Part shown: positions 6,010 to 19,475 of the stretch, piece after piece
Position numbering within the stretch: the stretch's first letter is position 1
How the letters are laid out: the number at the start of each line of letters is the position of its first letter
NCBI GenBank assembly: GCA_905182285.1
Contig: CAJJAY010000004.1
Coordinates: 1-51,884 of the forward strand
DNA: 51,884 nucleotides
From: an uncultured Amylibacter sp.
GTDB taxonomy: Bacteria; Pseudomonadota; Alphaproteobacteria; Rhodobacterales; Rhodobacteraceae
Direction: 5' to 3'
Notes under the pieces: generated by a model
The model's input: only the letters and a program-made list of their open reading frames with translations
Database searches by the model: none
Told to the model about the DNA's origin: nothing
Position numbers and translations under genes: made by a program

Positions 6010-6606
6010 TTATCCACCTGAAGAAACACCAACATTTGCTGGCCTTAAAAGACGGTCTGATATCATAAAACCTTCATCTAGAACCTGTAATATATGACCA
6101 GCCTTTACTGTCGGCATTGGTGCTTCAAACATTGCTTGATGTAATTCAGGATCAAATTTATCACCAACTTCTGGTGCTATAGGTATAATATTATGTTTTG
6201 CAAACGTATTAATTAATTCTCTTTGAGTAAGATCAATTCCCTCAAATAGACTTTTATTGGCTTCTCTCTGTTCTTCTGAAGCCATTTCTGATGCACGCTT
6301 CATGTTATCGTATACTGATAGTAAATCTCTAGCCAATTTTCGACCACCATATACTTCAGCATCCCTACGATCACGTTCTCCACGTTTTCTTTGGTTTTCA
6401 GCTTCAGCCAACGCCCTCATCAAGCGATCATTAAGTTCTGCATTCTCAGCACGCAATTCATCTACTTCACTTAATTCTTCAGATTCATCATTAGCCGAAT
6501 CATCGTTTTCAAGCTCTGTTAAATCTTCAATATTCACCAATTCTTCATCTTCTAACGGAACATCTGGTTCTGATAAGGATACTTTTGGTTTTTCGTCATC
6601 TAACAT
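6010..6606 (-). CDS. grpE: Nucleotide exchange factor GrpE
   Basis: Releases ADP from DnaK so the chaperone can cycle. Length is 198 aa, like E. coli GrpE (197). It has an acidic, low-complexity N-terminus (about residues 1-55), a long coiled-coil stretch rich in Glu, Leu and Arg (about 55-110) and the compact beta domain with the DPELHQAMFEAP segment, and it ends in LRPANVGVSSGG. It follows hrcA by only 4 bp on the same strand, the common hrcA-grpE arrangement, so the two are almost certainly co-transcribed from the promoter ahead of hrcA. dnaKJ lies 3.5 kb away on the opposite strand. Confidence 0.97.
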   Translation of the reverse strand: MLDDEKPKVSLSEPDVPLEDEELVNIEDLTELENDDSANDESEELSEVDELRAENAELNDRLMRALAEAENQRKRGERDRRDAEVYGGRKLARDLLSVYDNMKRASEMASEEQREANKSLFEGIDLTQRELINTFAKHNIIPIAPEVGDKFDPELHQAMFEAPMPTVKAGHILQVLDEGFMISDRLLRPANVGVSSGG

Positions 6607-10662: not shown

Positions 10663-11016
10663 ATGAAAATAATATGGTTATTTTTTGGCTTTATTACACT
10701 TCTTTTGGCTCTTATTGGTATTGTATTACCTTTACTACCTACTGTACCTTTTTTGCTCTTAGCAGCATTTTTCTTTGCTCGCTCATCTACAAGGATACAC
10801 GATTGGCTCATTAACCATCCAAAACTTGGCCCTCCAATATATGATTGGCAAAATAATGGCTCCATAAGCTTAAAGTCAAAAAAAACTGCCACCTTTTGTA
10901 TACTTATTGCTTTATTAATACCTATCTATATAGGCTTGGGTTGGAAAATAATTTCATTTCAAATTTTAATATTATGTATAGTTTTAAGCTTTATTTGGAC
11001 ACGTCCGTCAAAATAG
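10663..11016 (+). CDS. DUF454 (YbaN family) inner-membrane protein
   Basis: A 117-residue membrane protein with a hydrophobic hairpin at residues 3-40 (containing IGIVLPLLPTVPFLLLAAFFFARSS in family style) and a second hydrophobic pair at about 75-110. The P-L-L-P-T-V-P-F segment and the HDWLINHPKLGPPIYDW motif are typical of DUF454/YbaN. Function is unknown in the family. It follows hemW by 19 bp on the same strand, and its last 26 bp overlap the 3' end of the convergent parB gene, so the two mRNAs are complementary at their ends. Confidence 0.85.
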   Translation: MKIIWLFFGFITLLLALIGIVLPLLPTVPFLLLAAFFFARSSTRIHDWLINHPKLGPPIYDWQNNGSISLKSKKTATFCILIALLIPIYIGLGWKIISFQILILCIVLSFIWTRPSK

Positions 11017-11881
11017 AACATAACCTATCTAATTCATCTAAATTTTTATATGAAATTATAACTTTTCCATCACCACTCAATTCTTTATGGTCTATTGATA
11101 CTTTCATTTTAATATTAGAAAATAAATCGGCTTCTATTGCCAAAGTATCTGAATCTTTTTTCTGTATGGTTTTATTTATTTTTTTCCTACTAAGCCTTTG
11201 TTTTACATATCTTTCTGCTTCCCTTACAGACATTTTTTCTTCAATCATAATGTTAGCCAATGCAACAGCCTGTTTATTACCAACCAAAGTTCTTGCATGC
11301 CCCACAGAAAGCGCTCCATTGCGTACAAAGTTTTGTACTTTTTCTGGTAAATTTAATAACCTTAATAAGTTTGCAATATAACTTCTACTTTTTCCTAAAC
11401 CAGAAGCTACCTGGTCTTGAGTATAGCTGAAATTATCTATCAAAGATTGATAACCAAGAGCCTCTTCTAATGGGTTTAAATTTGATCTTTGTACATTTTC
11501 AATAATAGCAACTTCTAATAGCTCTTCGTCCGTGAAGTCGCGAACCACAACAGGAACCTCATGTAACTGTGCTTTCTGTGCGGCTCGCCACCTTCTCTCA
11601 CCTGCTACAATTTGGTACAACTCATTGTTTTCAGGAGATAACCTTACTATTATTGGTTGGATTATACCTCTTGAGGCAATGGATCTAGCCAAGTCTTCTA
11701 AATCATCTTTATTAAAGTCTTGGCGCGGTTGATCAGGATTTGCTATGACTTTCTCAATAGGCAAAATATTGGTTGAAGTAATTAAAGTTGCGTCTGGTGT
11801 TTTTTTAGTATCACCATCTATATCTGCCATTAAAGCGGATAATCCACGTCCTAATCCTTTGCGGTCTCTTTTTTTACTCAT
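10991..11881 (-). CDS. parB: Chromosome-partitioning protein ParB
   Basis: CTP-dependent DNA clamp that loads at parS and spreads along origin-proximal DNA, acting with ParA in chromosome segregation. Seen: the ParA-contacting N-terminus KGLGRGLSAL, the CTPase domain with NPDQPRQ, the GERRWRA motif and IIENVQRSNLNPLEEA, the helix-turn-helix around QDQVASGLGKSRSYIANLLRL, and a C-terminal dimerisation tail. I start at ATG 11881 (296 aa); a TTG four codons upstream is possible. It follows parA by about 20 bp. Three perfect parS sites lie 1.1-3.3 kb away. Its 3' end overlaps the DUF454 gene. Confidence 0.97.
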   Translation of the reverse strand: MSKKRDRKGLGRGLSALMADIDGDTKKTPDATLITSTNILPIEKVIANPDQPRQDFNKDDLEDLARSIASRGIIQPIIVRLSPENNELYQIVAGERRWRAAQKAQLHEVPVVVRDFTDEELLEVAIIENVQRSNLNPLEEALGYQSLIDNFSYTQDQVASGLGKSRSYIANLLRLLNLPEKVQNFVRNGALSVGHARTLVGNKQAVALANIMIEEKMSVREAERYVKQRLSRKKINKTIQKKDSDTLAIEADLFSNIKMKVSIDHKELSGDGKVIISYKNLDELDRLCSILTDVSK

Positions 11882-11902
11882 TTTAATATCCAATACCTAA
11901 AT

Positions 11903-12688
11903 TTATCTTTGTTTAACCTTATCTCTAATTAGAAACTCAGCCCCTAGAGAAACATATGCTTCTGCCCCGCGACCTGAAGCGTCATATTCAAGAATTGTTT
12001 CACCATAAGACGGCGCTTCAGAAAGCCGTACAGTTCTAGGTATAATGGTTTTATATACTAAATCCTTTAAGTTATCTCGAACATCGACTTCAACCTGTTG
12101 TGCAAGTTTAACCCTTTTATCAAACATAGTTAAAACCACACCATCAATAAACAATGAGGTTCCTAACGCCTCACGTACTTCTCTAACAGTCAAGATTAAT
12201 TGTGATAAACCCTCCAATGCATAAAACTCTGATTGTAAAGGTACTAAAACAGAGTCACTTGCAGCAAATGCATTTATTGTTAGTAAGTTAAGCGACGGAG
12301 GACAGTCAATGAAAACATAATCGAACTCCTTAACTTTTTCTATAGCGTTACGCAGTTTAATTAGTCGACCCTTGTCGTTCATTAGTTCTGCGTCTGCTGA
12401 GCTGAGATCCGTATTGGATGTTATTAGTGATAAATTTTTAACATGTGTTTTTATAATTGCTTTATTTATATCAATACCATCAACCAAAACATCATATGCT
12501 GTATATTCTCTATTGTCAGGAGAGATACCCAATCCTGTAGAGGCATTTCCTTGAGGATCAAGGTCTATTACAAGAACTTTATGGCCCTTAGTTGCTATCG
12601 CAGCAGCCATATTAATAGCTGTTGTGGTTTTACCAACACCACCTTTTTGATTAGCAATAGAAACTATTCTTTTAAGTTTAACCCGCAT
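11903..12688 (-). CDS. parA: Chromosome-partitioning ATPase ParA
   Basis: Deviant Walker ATPase (MinD/ParA family) that forms nucleoid gradients to move ParB-parS complexes apart. The deviant Walker A KGGVGKTT is at residues 15-22, Walker A' VIDLDPQGNAS near 42-52 and Walker B DYVFIDCPPSLNLLT near 120. The C-terminus has the RTVRLSEAPSYGETILEYD segment typical of chromosomal ParA (Soj). Length 261 aa, with no N-terminal DNA-binding extension of plasmid ParA. It overlaps the end of rsmG by 11 bp and precedes parB, the usual chromosomal order. Confidence 0.97.
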   Translation of the reverse strand: MRVKLKRIVSIANQKGGVGKTTTAINMAAAIATKGHKVLVIDLDPQGNASTGLGISPDNREYTAYDVLVDGIDINKAIIKTHVKNLSLITSNTDLSSADAELMNDKGRLIKLRNAIEKVKEFDYVFIDCPPSLNLLTINAFAASDSVLVPLQSEFYALEGLSQLILTVREVREALGTSLFIDGVVLTMFDKRVKLAQQVEVDVRDNLKDLVYKTIIPRTVRLSEAPSYGETILEYDASGRGAEAYVSLGAEFLIRDKVKQR

Positions 12689-13313
12689 GCTTTATTCCAG
12701 TCAGTTGTAAAATGCGCCCGTTTTGATGCGTTACACTTTGTCTTTCTTTTAACATGAAACCCCAAGATTTTTTTGCTTCATAAACCTCATTAACATAAGT
12801 ATCACCCTTCAAGAACAAACATGTTCCACCATCTTTAAGTATATCTTTACTGTACGTTAGCAGTTGAGAAAGTGTTGCTAATGCTCTTGCAGTAACAATA
12901 TCTGCCTGTAGTCCTTCCACATTTTCTATTCTATTTGTTAATATATTTATATCAATACCTGTTTCACGTGAAACATTTCTCATAAATGCACACTTTCTTG
13001 AATCACTCTCAATAAGTACAAATTTTAATAGTGGTTTTTTCTCTAGGGCTATAATTGCCAGAACTAGGCCAGCAAAACCTGCTCCAGAACCTATATCTAC
13101 AAGGGTTTTAGCATAACTTGGTAAGTGTTGCCACAATTGAGCAGAATCCAAGAAATGTCTGTGCCATTTATTCTTTAATGTAGTTTTTGATACCAGGTTA
13201 ATTGCTGGATTCCATTTTTCAAGTAATTTAGAGTATACCTCTAATCGGTCCATTGTTTCACGTGAAACATCGCAAAGTCTCATTAGCTCAAGCTTTGAAG
13301 TCTCTTCGTTCAT
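12678..13313 (-). CDS. rsmG: 16S rRNA (guanine-N7) methyltransferase RsmG (GidB)
   Basis: Methylates a G in the 530 loop of 16S rRNA (G527 in E. coli) using SAM. The SAM-binding motif DIGSGAGF is at residues 73-80, with the ESDSRKCAF motif at about 102-110. Length 211 aa is usual. It overlaps mnmG by 4 bp (ATGA) and parA by 11 bp, so the three are one operon. An unusual feature is that two perfect parS palindromes lie inside the gene; both are read in the same phase and encode Val-Ser-Arg-Glu-Thr, at residues 16-20 and 114-118. Confidence 0.97.
12960..12975. other. parS site 1 (ParB-binding), inside rsmG
   Basis: Perfect 16-bp palindrome TGTTTCACGTGAAACA, the widespread bacterial parS consensus recognised by chromosomal ParB. 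It is inside rsmG, where it encodes Val-Ser-Arg-Glu-Thr (residues 114-118), and lies about 5.7 kb from the candidate origin. Confidence 0.95.
13254..13269. other. parS site 2 (ParB-binding), inside rsmG
   Basis: A second perfect copy of TGTTTCACGTGAAACA, 294 bp from the first. It is near the 5' end of rsmG and again encodes Val-Ser-Arg-Glu-Thr (residues 16-20). Same palindrome and same codon phase as site 1. Confidence 0.95.
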
Positions 13314-15184
13314 GCACTTTTCTTCACATCTGATCTTCTAATTGATGTAAGTATTAACGCCAATGCTGCTGGTGTCATTCCTTCAATTCTTCCTGCTTGA
13401 GCTAATGTTGATGGACGTGATTGTGCTAGCTTTTGCTTTATTTCATTAGATAAGCCTGAAATATCTTTAAAGTTAAAATTTTCTGGTATAGATAACTGCT
13501 CATCTTTTCTCATAGCTTCAACCGCTGATGACTGACGATCTATATAATTTACGTAAACTGCATCTTTTTCTAACTGGTCTCTTACACCTTTATCCAAACT
13601 CGATAAATCTGGCCAAATATTAGTTAGCTTTTGCAAATCAACACCTTTAAAAGATAATAAATCCATAGCGGACCTATGAATACCATCTTGCTTAATGGAA
13701 ATACCAGCTTTTTTTGCCTGTGTGGGTGTGATTGAATAAGAGTTAAGTAAGGATTTGGCGTTGTTCAAAATTTCAAGCCTAGCGTTAAATAAGTTACGCC
13801 TTTTTTCATGGACCAATCCACACTTAATACCTAATGGTGTTAATCTTTGATCAGCATTGTCCGCCCGTAATGATAATCTATATTCTGCACGACTGGTAAA
13901 CATACGGTATGGTTCAGTAACGCCACGGGTAACCAAATCATCAATCATAACACCTATATAAGCTTGTGCTCTATCAAAAATAATTGGGGTTTTAGATAGT
14001 GCCGCTCTTGCTGCATTTAAACCAGCAACCAACCCCTGTGCGGCAGCCTCCTCATATCCAGTGGTACCATTTATTTGTCCAGCAAGGTAAAAACCATTAA
14101 TGTCTTTTAGCTCTAACGTATGCTTTAACGCTCTTGGGTCTACGTAATCATATTCAATTGCATATCCTGGCTGTAAAATTTTCGCTTTTTCTAACCCAAG
14201 CATAGAATGAACATATTCATTTTGAATATCTTCTGGCAGACTGGTAGAAATGCCATTTGGATATATCGTATAATCATTTAAACCTTCAGGTTCTAAGAAT
14301 ACTTGGTGGCTATCTTTTTCAGCAAACCTTACAATCTTATCCTCAATTGACGGGCAGTATCGTGGCCCAACACCATCAATTTTACCACCATACATTGCTG
14401 ATTTTTCTAAGTTTTCTTGTATTATTGTATGTGTTGTTAGATTTGTGTGTGTAATACCACACTTAATCTGGCGTGGTATATCTGACTTCTTAGAAAGAAA
14501 AGAAAATAGGCTAGGGTCCTCATCAGCGGCCTGCGTTTCTAATAAACTCCAGTTGATTGTTCTGGCATCAAGGCGCGGCGGCGTTCCAGTTTTTAGACGG
14601 CCCATTGGCAATCTAAAACTATCCAACCGCTCAGCTAATGGAATTGCAGGCTTATCGCCCATTCGCCCACCAGGACGACTAACATTTCCAATATGAATAA
14701 TTCCTCTAAGAAAAGTTCCTGTTGTTAAAACAACAGTCTTTGAGTGTACCTCACTTCTATCGGCTAGTATGACCCCCCCTATAGAATCATCTTTCATTAT
14801 TAAATCAGATACTTCAGCCTCAATTACATCCAAACCATCTATATTTTTGAATTCATTCTGCATAGCATTTCTATAAAGTGCTCGATCTGCTTGAGTTCTT
14901 GGACCCTGAACTGCTGGGCCTTTTTTTCTGTTTAAAAGTCTAAACTGAATACCTGATTTATCCGCTACACGACCCATTAATCCATCTAATGCATCAATTT
15001 CACGAACTAGGTGACCTTTTCCAAGCCCACCAATAGCTGGGTTGCAAGACATTTCACCTATAGATTTAAATTTGTGAGTAATTAATGCTGTCTTTGCACC
15101 CACCCTCCATGCTGCATGAGCGGCATCTGCCCCGGCATGACCACCACCAATTATAATTACATCATATTGTTTCACGTGAAACAC
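13310..15184 (-). CDS. mnmG: tRNA uridine-5-carboxymethylaminomethyl modification enzyme MnmG (GidA)
   Basis: FAD- and NADH-dependent partner of MnmE in modifying U34 of tRNAs. The FAD-binding [10 protein letters not shown] is at residues 13-22. Other landmarks are [22 protein letters not shown], the RGPAVQ-like [15 protein letters not shown] block, [17 protein letters not shown] and the C-terminal MnmE/tRNA-contact domain. Length 624 aa is standard. The start is GTG 15184; its second and third bases already belong to parS site 3, so the protein begins MFHVKQ. mnmE is 84 bp upstream on the same strand and rsmG overlaps the 3' end by 4 bp. Confidence 0.97.
15168..15183. other. parS site 3 (ParB-binding), over the mnmG start
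   Basis: Third perfect TGTTTCACGTGAAACA. It overlaps the GTG start codon of mnmG and is read in another codon phase, giving Phe-His-Val-Lys. It lies about 3.3 kb from the candidate origin. Bound ParB could in principle affect mnmG expression; that is inference. Confidence 0.95.
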
Positions 15185-16595: not shown

Positions 16596-17867
16596 TTATG
16601 TATTCATAGAATCAAAGAATTCAGAATTTGATTTTGTTGCCTTTAGTTTACCGAGTAAGAACTCAACAGCGTCTGTTGTTCCCATCGGATTTAAAATCCT
16701 TCGTAATACAAATGTCTTTGCTAGATCAGTTGGGTCTACTAAAAGCTCTTCTTTTCTTGTTCCAGACTTCAAGATATCTATTGCAGGGAAAACGCGTTTA
16801 TCCGCAACTTTGCGATCTAGCACAACTTCAGAGTTACCAGTGCCTTTAAACTCTTCAAAAATAACTTCGTCCATACGAGAACCTGTTTCTATTAGAGCAG
16901 TTGCGATAATAGTTAAAGATCCACCCTCTTCGATGTTTCGTGCTGCTCCAAAGAACCGTTTAGGGCGCTGTAGAGCATTCGCATCAACCCCACCGGTAAG
17001 AACTTTACCTGAGGACGGTACAACAGTGTTAAATGCGCGTCCTAGGCGGGTTATTGAATCTAATAAAATCACAACATCTCGACCATGCTCAACTAATCTT
17101 TTTGCTTTTTCAATCGCCATTTCGGATACAGCAACGTGTCGTGTTGCCGGTTCATCAAATGTTGAAGAGATCACCTCTCCCTTTACAGAACGCTGCATAT
17201 CTGTAACTTCTTCTGGTCTCTCATCAATCAATAAAACTATCAAAAAGCATTCTGGATGATTTACTTCAAGAGATTTGGCAATATTTTGAAGGATAACAGT
17301 TTTACCTGTCCTAGGTGGCGCAACTATTAAAGACCTTTGACCCTTGCCTATAGGTGAAACTAAATCAATTAACCTAGCCGTTTTATCTTTTATTGTAGGA
17401 TCTTCTATTTCCATTTTTAGACGTTCGTCTGGATATAATGGTGTTAAATTATCAAAATGTACTTTATGTTTTATCGCTTCTGGATCAGAAAAATTAATTT
17501 GTGTGACTTTTGTCATAGCAAAATAACGTTCACCCTCTTCAGGCTGTGAAATCCAACCCTCTACAGTGTCTCCTGTTCTTAATGAATGTTTTCGTATCAT
17601 TTGAGGTGAAACATAAATATCTTCAGGACCTGGTAAATAATTTGCTTGAGGTGATCTTAAAAAACCAAAACCATCCGACATTACTTCCATAACACCGTCC
17701 CCTGAGACTTCTGCTCCGTCCTCAGATTTCTCTTTTAAAATAGCAAACATCATCTCACCTTTTCTCATAGTGGATGCATTTTCTATCTCTAGGGTTTCGG
17801 CCATCTTTAATAAATCGGCAGCCGATTTAGCTTTAAGCTCTGAAAGGTTTACTTTTTCTGTTTCCAT
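16596..17867 (-). CDS. rho: Transcription termination factor Rho
   Basis: Hexameric RNA helicase that ends transcription at Rho-dependent sites. Seen in order: N-terminal helix bundle; the cold-shock-like RNA-binding domain with DGFGFLRSP and the [20 protein letters not shown] block; Walker A APPRTGKT at residues 183-190; [12 protein letters not shown]; the [16 protein letters not shown] Walker B region; the Q-loop/R-loop [27 protein letters not shown]; and the C-terminal [14 protein letters not shown]. Length 423 aa, with no large insertion. It lies between mnmE and hemJ, as in many Alphaproteobacteria. The 134-bp gap upstream probably holds its promoter, but I could not fix the boxes with confidence. 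Confidence 0.98.
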
Positions 17868-18001: not shown

Positions 18002-18451
18002 TTAAAAAGGTCTTACAACGACCATTATTATAATTAACACCATCAAAAATGTAGGAACCTCATTTAATAGACGATATTGTTTTCCACTATACTGAATAAC
18101 ATTATTTTTTAATAATTTTTGTTGCTTTAATAGAAAACCGTGAAAACCTGTCATTAATATAACAGAAGCGATTTTGATCCATATCCAGAAAACTGCCCAA
18201 TCAACGATACCTGGAGTTAAGAGCAATAGAATACCAAAAGTCCAAGATGTAATCATTGCAGGATTCATAATACGTTTAATTAATAAATGTTCCCACAATA
18301 CTATAGTTTTCCCTTTATCTAAATGTTTTGAATCTGTCTCAACATGATAAACATATAATCTAGGTAGATATAGTAAACCTGCCATCCATGATATCACAGC
18401 CAATAGATGTATTACTTTCGTCCAAGGATAAATTGTATTTAAAATTTCCAT
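18002..18451 (-). CDS. hemJ: Protoporphyrinogen IX oxidase HemJ (UPF0093)
   Basis: Membrane enzyme that oxidises protoporphyrinogen IX to protoporphyrin IX, the step before ferrochelatase, in bacteria without HemG or HemY. The 149-residue protein has about four membrane helices. It begins with TKVIHLLAVISWMAGLLYLPRLYVYH, the family signature with conserved His15, Trp and Arg, and has VLWEHLLIKRIMNPAM and KQYRLLNEVPT later. It is the last gene before the candidate origin. In related genomes hemE often lies between rho/hemJ and the origin; it is not here. Confidence 0.93.
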   Translation of the reverse strand: MEILNTIYPWTKVIHLLAVISWMAGLLYLPRLYVYHVETDSKHLDKGKTIVLWEHLLIKRIMNPAMITSWTFGILLLLTPGIVDWAVFWIWIKIASVILMTGFHGFLLKQQKLLKNNVIQYSGKQYRLLNEVPTFLMVLIIIMVVVRPF

Positions 18452-18616
18452 CTTAGCTTTCTAATGTTATTCTAACATCACTAATACTATAATATATATA
18501 TTAAGAAAGAATAGTTGTTTGTAGTGTATACTGTGAAAAGCGGGGATTAAATTTAATTAACAAATATATTAACAAAAAAAGTAAGAAATTATTTAAAATT
18601 CATGTTATACACTAGA

Positions 18617-18625
18617 TGTGAATAA
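18617..18625 (-). other. DnaA box, exact match
   Basis: TTATTCACA on the minus strand matches the 9-base DnaA consensus TTWTNCACA at every position. It lies near the middle of the candidate origin. Confidence 0.7.
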
Positions 18626-18669
18626 GTTTGGAACGTGTTGTATTTAAACAAATAAATATTGTATATATA

Positions 18670-18678
18670 TGTGGATAG
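18670..18678 (-). other. DnaA box-like site
   Basis: CTATCCACA on the minus strand, one mismatch (first base) from TTATCCACA. It is embedded in an alternating A/T tract. Confidence 0.55.
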
Positions 18679-18703
18679 ATATGTATATAAATACATCAAA
18701 AAA

Positions 18704-18712
18704 GTATCCACA
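18704..18712 (+). other. DnaA box-like site
   Basis: GTATCCACA on the plus strand, one mismatch (first base) from TTATCCACA. It is inverted relative to the site 25 bp to its left. Confidence 0.55.
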
Positions 18713-18832
18713 GGAATTAAATAAAAACAAAAAATATATTAACAGCTAATAAAATGTTAATTATAAAAAATAAGTGTTAGTTATTTTTGAAAATTAATGA
18801 AAAACTGTTAATAAATATAAACAAGACACATT

Positions 18833-18841
18833 GTATCCACA
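18833..18841 (+). other. DnaA box-like site
   Basis: GTATCCACA on the plus strand, the same nonamer as the site at 18704. It is 34 bp before the maf start codon, so DnaA bound here could also affect maf transcription. Confidence 0.5.
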
Positions 18842-18875
18842 ACTAATCAACATACAAATATAATAAAGGTAGACA

Positions 18876-19475
18876 GTGAAACCAAATATTATTCTAGCAT
18901 CTGAATCTATAACAAGACAAAACTTATTAACGCAGGCTGGAGTAATATTTAATTCTGTTTCTGCGAAAATAGACGAAATAACAATAAAAAAATCTCTTAC
19001 AAGCGAGGGTGCAAATCCAAATGATATAGTTGATGCGTTGGCTGAATTTAAAGCAGCAAGAGTAGCAAATAATTATCCAACAGATATAGTAATTGGAAGT
19101 GATCAAATTTTAGTGTTTGAAGGTGAAATAATTTCTAAAGCTAAAAATATGATAGATGCTAAAAAAACACTGAAACGATTAAAAGGCAAAACACACCAAT
19201 TATTATCTTCAGCAGTAATATATGAGGATAATAAACCAGTATGGAGAACAATTTCAAGAGCACAGCTTTTCATGCGAGAGTTTTCAGATGAATTTCTTGA
19301 GGAGTATATAGAAAACTCAGGGAATATAATCTTATCATCAGTAGGGTGCTATCTTTTAGAAGAAAAAGGCGTAAATTTATTTAACAGAATTCAAGGGGAT
19401 TACTTTACTGTATTGGGATTTCCTTTACTAGAAGTTCTAGATTTTTTACGTAAGCGAGGTTTGATTATAACATGA
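18876..19475 (+). CDS. maf: Maf-family nucleoside triphosphate pyrophosphatase
   Basis: Hydrolyses non-standard or pyrimidine nucleoside triphosphates; a house-cleaning enzyme. The N-terminus NIILASESITRQNLL is a variant of the family SxSPRR motif, with Thr-Arg in place of Pro-Arg. GSDQILVFEGEIISKA holds the catalytic Asp, and the KLKG-like RLKGKTHQLLS block follows. The C-terminus IQGDYFTVLGFPLLEVLDFL is typical. 199 aa. Start is GTG 18876 with AAGG 7-8 nt upstream. First gene right of the candidate origin; its 3' end overlaps aroE by 4 bp (ATGA). Confidence 0.92.
   Translation: MKPNIILASESITRQNLLTQAGVIFNSVSAKIDEITIKKSLTSEGANPNDIVDALAEFKAARVANNYPTDIVIGSDQILVFEGEIISKAKNMIDAKKTLKRLKGKTHQLLSSAVIYEDNKPVWRTISRAQLFMREFSDEFLEEYIENSGNIILSSVGCYLLEEKGVNLFNRIQGDYFTVLGFPLLEVLDFLRKRGLIIT

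Follow-up and report, generated by a model that had tools for sequence, protein, structure and literature searches.

The gene-free, A/T-rich gap between hemJ and maf (positions 18452-18875) is most likely the chromosomal replication origin (oriC) of this Rhodobacteraceae bacterium. This had been proposed in a preliminary description of the DNA and is borne out by a strand-corrected skew switch at the gap, parS sites nearby, conserved synteny and a conserved core at the edge next to hemJ (18487-18563, + strand), the probable unwinding module; the skew of one complete relative (G003) dissents. The explanation as a whole, in which the gap is oriC, DnaA would act on 18532-18549, the duplex would open at 18487-18511 and ParB and parS would serve segregation, is in our view highly probable.

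Gene neighborhood and composition of the gap

The window analyzed here (51,884 nucleotides) is one entire contig (C4) of a MAG of 1.90 Mb in 56 contigs (84% complete), and its host is a member of the Rhodobacteraceae near Amylibacter. As previously described, a 424-bp gap without genes is flanked by genes pointing outward: hemJ (18002-18451, - strand; TIGR00701, 132.7 bits, just below the cut-off of 138.05) bounds it on the left, and maf (18876-19475, + strand; TIGR00172, above the cut-off) bounds it on the right and is followed by aroE, coaE, and dnaQ. The A/T-richness of the gap was confirmed as well (G+C of 20.5% vs 35.6% in the window); among 424-bp segments taken from the window in steps of 50 bases, 0.2% were equally or more A/T-rich. 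Family profile matches in the window placed rho (16596-17867, - strand; TIGR00767), mnmE, mnmG, rsmG, parA, and parB to the left of the gap.

The order of hemJ, gap and maf is kept in 71 of the 80 named relatives, with gap lengths of 370-524 bp, and the boundary genes are those conserved at origins of the hemE/hemJ-maf type in Alphaproteobacteria. The location of oriC is in itself ordinary and expected, as synteny would predict. In two Paracoccus loci (L049 and L060) the core is still found beside hemJ, and no maf was found within the stretch examined.

parS sites and strand composition

The parAB genes and three parS sites that had been reported to the left of the gap are indeed present. parA (11903-12688, - strand), encoding a ParA/MinD-type ATPase with NF041546 as its best profile (111.6 bits, under the cut-off), adjoins parB (10991-11893, - strand; TIGR00180, 190.4 bits, above the cut-off), and exact matches to parS (TGTTTCACGTGAAACA) are located at 12960-12975, 13254-13269, and 15168-15183, 3.3-5.5 kb from the gap. 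A scan of the 1.90-Mb assembly that allowed one mismatch gave no further site. The sequence TGTTTCACG, one of three 'DnaA box' motifs given for Ori-Finder in the accessible text of PMC6699656, is the left part of the parS palindrome TGTTTCACGTGAAACA.

Since the raw GC skew within the window tracks gene direction, the third codon positions of the 51 window genes were used with a correction for gene strand, and the breakpoint that best separates leading from lagging genes was determined. The best GC3-skew breakpoint is exactly this gap (0.241 for the 28 leading genes vs 0.080 for the 23 lagging genes; Mann-Whitney p 7e-5). The switch at the gap was equalled by one of 5000 within-strand permutations, and on resampling the gap was the commonest best breakpoint (1308 of 2000).

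A different reading of these data is that the gap merely separates divergent operons, that the skew flip is an artefact of gene direction and that the true origin lies elsewhere. The behavior of the raw skew agrees with it, and the whole-genome skew cannot be drawn for a MAG in 56 contigs. However, the switch survives the gene-strand correction, and the only parS sites of the MAG are located here. The same skew measure was applied to stretches of 400-600 kb from five genus relatives (G003, G022, G030, G031, and G032). In G032 the gap itself comes out best (rank 1 of 720), and in G030 it ranks second to a breakpoint 10 kb off that is nearly equal in score; it ranks 14th in G031 (best breakpoint 24 kb off, 0.126 vs 0.124 at the gap) and 74th in G022 (best breakpoint 9 kb off). 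The switch was thus found within 24 kb of the gap in four of the five relatives. The complete genome G003 is the exception and speaks for the other reading: its best breakpoint lies 238 kb from the hemJ-maf gap (0.390 vs 0.143, with the gap at rank 758 of 1120), the switch falling at about 3.418-3.422 Mb and the gap at 206.8 kb of G003:C1. The minima of the raw cumulative skew are 15 kb (G022), 21 kb (G030), 75 kb (G032), 95 kb (G031), and 242 kb (G003) from the gap.

Each of the five stretches, that of G003 among them, contains three parS sites, all of them 3.4-5.7 kb from the gap. The densest cluster of boxes is that of the gap in G022 and G030, and in G003, G031, and G032 the gap shares first place. 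The sole match in 600 kb of G003 to R2, a model of the core described below, falls at the gap (15.6 bits, E 0.0066). In G003, parS and the core are therefore parted from the skew switch, as would be expected if either the locus or the active origin had moved recently, and this genome is a test case for what marks an origin. The position of its skew switch lowered our confidence in the oriC reading slightly, from a level that was high and still is. With parS beside the gap in all five relatives and the core at the same locus across the class, an origin elsewhere appears very unlikely, and we retain the gap as oriC.

Against the background of GGGNAGGG-type polarity, GGGCAGGG words were also scanned. 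In G030 and G022 they change strand close to the gap and a second time about half a chromosome off, where the polarity turns from + to - at G030:C1 229-239 kb and G022:C1 124-136 kb, roughly opposite the hemJ-maf gap; these are probable terminus/dif regions. Words on the wrong strand occur in G030 at 1320, 1496, and 2143 kb (one 52 kb before the gap, two beyond it) and in G022, which was scanned with GGGCAGGGM, at 842, 1518, 1538, and 1720 kb (two of them 7-27 kb past the gap). No flip was found at the gap of G003, where the four listed words to its left are all on the + strand. Given these deviations and a resolution of tens of kb, GGGCAGGG polarity was rejected as an origin locator.

DnaA boxes of the gap

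According to the preliminary description, the gap holds one exact and four one-mismatch DnaA boxes. This count stands for the looser motif TTATNCACA, which is matched exactly at 18617 (-) and with one mismatch at 18605 (+), 18670 (-), 18704 (+), and 18833 (+), but not for TTATCCACA, to which a motif scan of 18452-18875 found no exact match and four sites with one mismatch. Motif scan and the alignment of relatives gave the weak box TTATACACT (18605-18613, + strand) and the boxes TTATTCACA (18617-18625, - strand), CTATCCACA (18670-18678, - strand), and GTATCCACA (18704-18712, + strand); a further GTATCCACA (18833-18841, + strand) is the box best kept in relatives, with exact TTATCCACA in six of eight. 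The four sites with at most one mismatch to TTATCCACA compare with 0.19 expected from the dinucleotide content of the gap itself (none of 3000 simulations reached four), and the nine other listed intergenic gaps of the window (82-419 bp) contain no such site. The A/T-rich gap thus harbors a cluster of DnaA boxes. Since the whole MAG has 612 sites with at most one mismatch to the DnaA box (places listed for 100 of the 612), the box count by itself would not settle oriC.

The boxes at 18670, 18704, and 18833 (CTATCCACA, GTATCCACA, and GTATCCACA) deviate from TTATCCACA at the first base only, and several sister species carry the exact sequence. The weak G-boxes of Caulobacter are likewise one base off the consensus (PMC4285127, PMC4468827). 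The changed first base may reflect lowered affinity or an altered preference of DnaA. Full-length dnaA (TIGR00362 above the cut-off) was not found in the MAG, nor in the relatives G026 and G007, said to be 100% and 92% complete; it is present in 11 of the 14 genus members searched and lies 134 kb from the gap in G030. Its absence from the three assemblies is probably due to assembly loss, though three cases at once are odd.

A conserved core beside hemJ

The boxes at 18670-18678 (-) and 18704-18712 (+) form an inverted pair 25 bp apart, as had been noted. Their proposed role as the core DnaA assembly site was not supported: identity there is 0.43-0.56, compared with a mean pairwise identity of up to 0.80 in 20-base windows at 18480-18570, the best conserved part across nine genus members. 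With at most one mismatch, the box at 18670 is kept in three of eight relatives, that at 18704 in five and that at 18833 in six. The stretch beside hemJ also stands out in the alignment of 71 named relatives.

Read from hemJ on the top strand, the core consists of an A/T tract, WWG triplets, a spacer and two tandem DnaA-like boxes. The A/T tract (18487-18511, + strand), delimited in alignments of relatives, is the probable DNA unwinding element. It is followed by the triplet segment TAG TTG T TTG TAG (18512-18524, + strand), which is trio-like and made of WWG units with one slip, as seen in the sequence and in the periodicity of relatives; the run in the window copy comprises only two exact WWG units with the one-base slip. 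After the spacer TGTATAC come the proximal box CTTTTCACA (18532-18540, - strand) and the second, tandem box TAATCCCCG (18541-18549, - strand), both located by scan and the alignment of relatives and each with three mismatches to TTATCCACA. The second box resembles the Caulobacter W-box, for which the consensus TCCCCA is given (PMC4285127).

The occurrence of the core was assessed with three search models. A family HMM (nhmmer), built from 69 named family rows with the window left out, placed its match correctly in 72 of 81 sequences, a count that includes training rows, and gave five weak matches elsewhere. It gave no match in the window at E 10 and also missed 8 of the 80 named loci, among them L036, a training row. 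R1, a sequence-only model of 44 rows including the window, gave a single match in the MAG at E 0.001 or better. It matched 26 of 33 genus genomes, in all 26 just upstream of hemJ (eight being training rows), and six of the seven genus genomes without a match gave no hemJ match either. When R1 was run on 289 class genomes, 62 were matched and 227 gave no match in the fast search. Fifty of the 59 matches outside the Rhodobacteraceae are at the oriC locus, with hemE, rho, or maf adjacent. Of these, 43 precede hemE by 16-180 bp with an orientation that never varies, six are placed between rho and one of maf, ppsR, coaE, and dnaQ in genomes that gave no hemE, and one adjoins maf (G038). The other nine were not traced to this locus: the match is within a long open frame in G074 and G210, beside fabI in G168, at a contig end in G081, and next to unrecognised or unrelated neighbors in G165, G067, G094, and C12 of G049; the match on C19 of G049 was outside the neighbor scan.

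Since the window is part of the R1 training alignment, its own R1 match is partly circular, and R2 was therefore trained without any Rhodobacteraceae, on 28 rows from other families that R1 had matched at the oriC locus. R2 detects the core in the window with 42.4 bits (E 2.3e-12), the next match having 10.3 bits, and matches 51 of the 80 named loci at E 0.05 or better, 50 of them within about 100 bp upstream of hemJ. Because the R2 rows had been picked by R1, eight more hemJ-maf stretches were tested, drawn from 18 genomes outside the genus that R1 had missed and having hemJ and maf on one contig at a convenient length. R2 found six of the eight with E values of 3e-5 or better; L215 gave a weak match on the other strand (E 0.01) and L212 none. 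With filters off, R2 gave a weak match in L053 (E 0.006) and none in Mesorhizobium L105 and L106, Roseococcus L103, or L108. In L057, the remaining one of the 51 matched loci, the core (6447-6510) is closer to maf (about 240 bp) than to hemJ (1.1 kb), a layout resembling the hemE type.

These results bear on a second reading, in which the gap is oriC with the inverted pair at 18670/18704 as its working core, and 18487-18563 serves the leftward gene as a promoter or regulatory site. The core does lie just upstream of that gene with its orientation to the gene kept, hemE and hemJ are both heme genes, and the pair is truly inverted. However, the gene to the left varies between hemJ, hemE and, where no hemE was found, rho, and the core keeps its place at the locus throughout, so that a heme-gene promoter was rejected as its main explanation. 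Moreover, in three Rhodobacteraceae (G061, G190, and G288) hemE occupies another place in the genome, away from the single core match. Relatives preserve the pair poorly, the sequence around it is weakly conserved, and it is 18487-18563 that holds tandem DnaA-like boxes. We regard a promoter or regulatory role of this kind as very unlikely and treat 18487-18563 as the conserved core of oriC.

Triplet periodicity and the published BUS rule

The 28 class rows showed a mean WWG run of 3.43 vs 1.35 after shuffling (p 2e-6), with at least three units in 20 of the 28, while runs of middle-A triplets were not in excess (2.21 vs 2.12, p 0.45). The 44 family rows, among them the window, had an excess of both WWG and middle-A runs, the latter with 3.36 vs 2.40. 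Part of the WWG excess could come from selection, as the class rows were picked by R1, whose pattern is triplet-phased. The R2 alignments from the stretches that R1 had missed contain the same G-phased triplets, which, judged by eye only, argues against selection as the source.

The published BUS rule (PMC8287927) gave no match in the window core. Its box with at most two mismatches beside trios is absent, the two core boxes having three mismatches each, and no run of at least three NAN trios lies 0-16 bp from a qualifying box. The order of tandem boxes, short spacer, triplets and A/T tract is present by alignment, with boxes that are degenerate in the window. Of 69 family cores, 32 satisfied the rule, vs 6.5 expected from shuffled sequence; of the 29 class rows, which count the window, 6 did so, vs 1.7 expected. 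Applied to the rest of the gap, the rule gave four matches vs 3.1 expected and was rejected as a whole-gap search, being at chance level.

The core might accordingly be an ordinary BUS with middle-A DnaA-trios, its WWG periodicity being a by-product of base composition or of the search model. The excess of middle-A runs in the family rows, the number of family cores that satisfy the rule and the choice of the class rows by R1 all fit such a reading. In the other families, however, WWG runs and not middle-A runs exceed the shuffled level, few class rows satisfy the rule, and the G-phased triplets recur in stretches that R1 had missed. An ordinary BUS is therefore rather unlikely in our judgment. 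By analogy, the core would function as BUS/DUE modules do, and 'variant' is the most fitting term for it, the window copy lying outside strict BUS membership. We incline, by a narrow measure, to the view that a single origin-unwinding module, fixed at the left edge of oriC, is common to the Alphaproteobacteria, and that its sites for DnaA on single strands would be WWG (TTG/TAG/ATG) and not the middle-adenine trios of Bacillus.

Proposed mechanism and significance

By analogy with the Bacillus and E. coli systems, from which DnaA binding, the direction of growth and the place of opening are taken, ATP-DnaA would bind the two tandem boxes at 18532-18549. The DnaA oligomer would then extend leftward onto the top-strand WWG triplets (18512-18524) and open the A/T tract (18487-18511) next to hemJ. 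The boxes between 18617 and 18841 would form the remainder of the DnaA assembly region. Segregation of bacterial origins is driven by ParB, which here, bound at the three parS 3.3-5.5 kb left of the gap, would segregate the freshly replicated origin. The observations behind this scheme are the place of the gap, the strand switch, parS, the conservation of the core with its position and orientation, and the triplet periodicity of relatives.

Where an assembly is too fragmented for whole-genome skew, the core can serve as a search model for finding origins. It also bears on single-strand recognition: how the DnaA proteins of E. coli and T. maritima recognize differing single-strand motifs is still to be elucidated (PMC10316083), and the core makes this question testable with oligos. 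Deviant trios lacking the middle adenine have been suspected, as stated in the accessible text of PMC8287927; the WWG module, if true, would be such an adenine-less 'deviant trio', there suspected and not demonstrated.

Comparison with known origins

The gap is like Cori of Caulobacter crescentus, around which we take the gene order to comprise a heme gene on one side and maf-aroE-coaE-dnaQ on the other. Both have an A/T-rich stretch, few weak DnaA boxes and a W-box-like TCCCC(A/G) in the core. Cori differs in lying between hemE and COG1806/ppsR, whereas here the heme gene is hemJ and no ppsR is found at the gap; the Cori sequence itself was outside the R1/R2 comparison. The earlier designation of the origin as Caulobacter-type is thus apt for the gene order and fails for regulation, since the gap contains neither TTAA-N7-TTAA nor GANTC. 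CtrA and GANTC control of the gap was rejected on this ground. Across the window there are 3 TTAA-N7-TTAA sites vs 6.7 expected. A scan of the window with the IHF consensus (one mismatch) gave 137 matches vs 150 expected and is thus uninformative. GANTC is markedly scarce in the window, with 67 sites vs 150 expected and at least 67 in all 100 shuffles, as if CcrM-type sites were avoided.

The core and the BUS of Bacillus subtilis share strand and order (PMC8287927, PMC10316083), with tandem boxes, a short spacer, triplets whose 3' end faces the box, and an A/T tract. They differ in that the window has boxes with three mismatches and a slip in the triplets and falls outside the BUS rule. The middle A is conserved in Bacillus, whereas other alphaproteobacterial families have T or A in the middle of the triplet.

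The best R2 match in a 2-kb stretch of E. coli K-12 oriC is at CCTGTGGATAAC..GGAT (7.3 bits, E 0.009), the DnaA box flanking the A/T-rich side, known as the R1 box; this match is suggestive only. The model R1 gave no clear match in E. coli oriC, the place of this box ranking third with 2.5 bits. The core is like the DUE-R1 region of E. coli in the strand of its TTGT units and in the side of the first box on which they lie, and the E. coli single-strand motif is TT[G/A]T(T) (PMC10316083). E. coli oriC differs in its position between mnmG and mioC, and no WWG run is evident by eye beside its box. As TTG repeats also spell the TTGT motif, the WWG module, if true, would be a natural bridge between the two known modes by which DnaA holds single-stranded origin DNA.

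The features by which Ori-Finder recognizes origins of Rhodobacteraceae (PMC6699656), namely a local GC minimum, DnaA boxes, parAB nearby and a skew switch, are all found at this gap; the accessible text of that article describes no conserved core element. A search of the open-licence PMC literature, as far as its text was accessible, found no earlier print of such a core or of alphaproteobacterial trios. The ori sequences of Wolbachia and related bacteria are described as alike only among close relatives (PMC1914354, accessible text). Compared with that description, the core is one 77-bp module with a fixed place and orientation that is recognizable in many alphaproteobacterial families.
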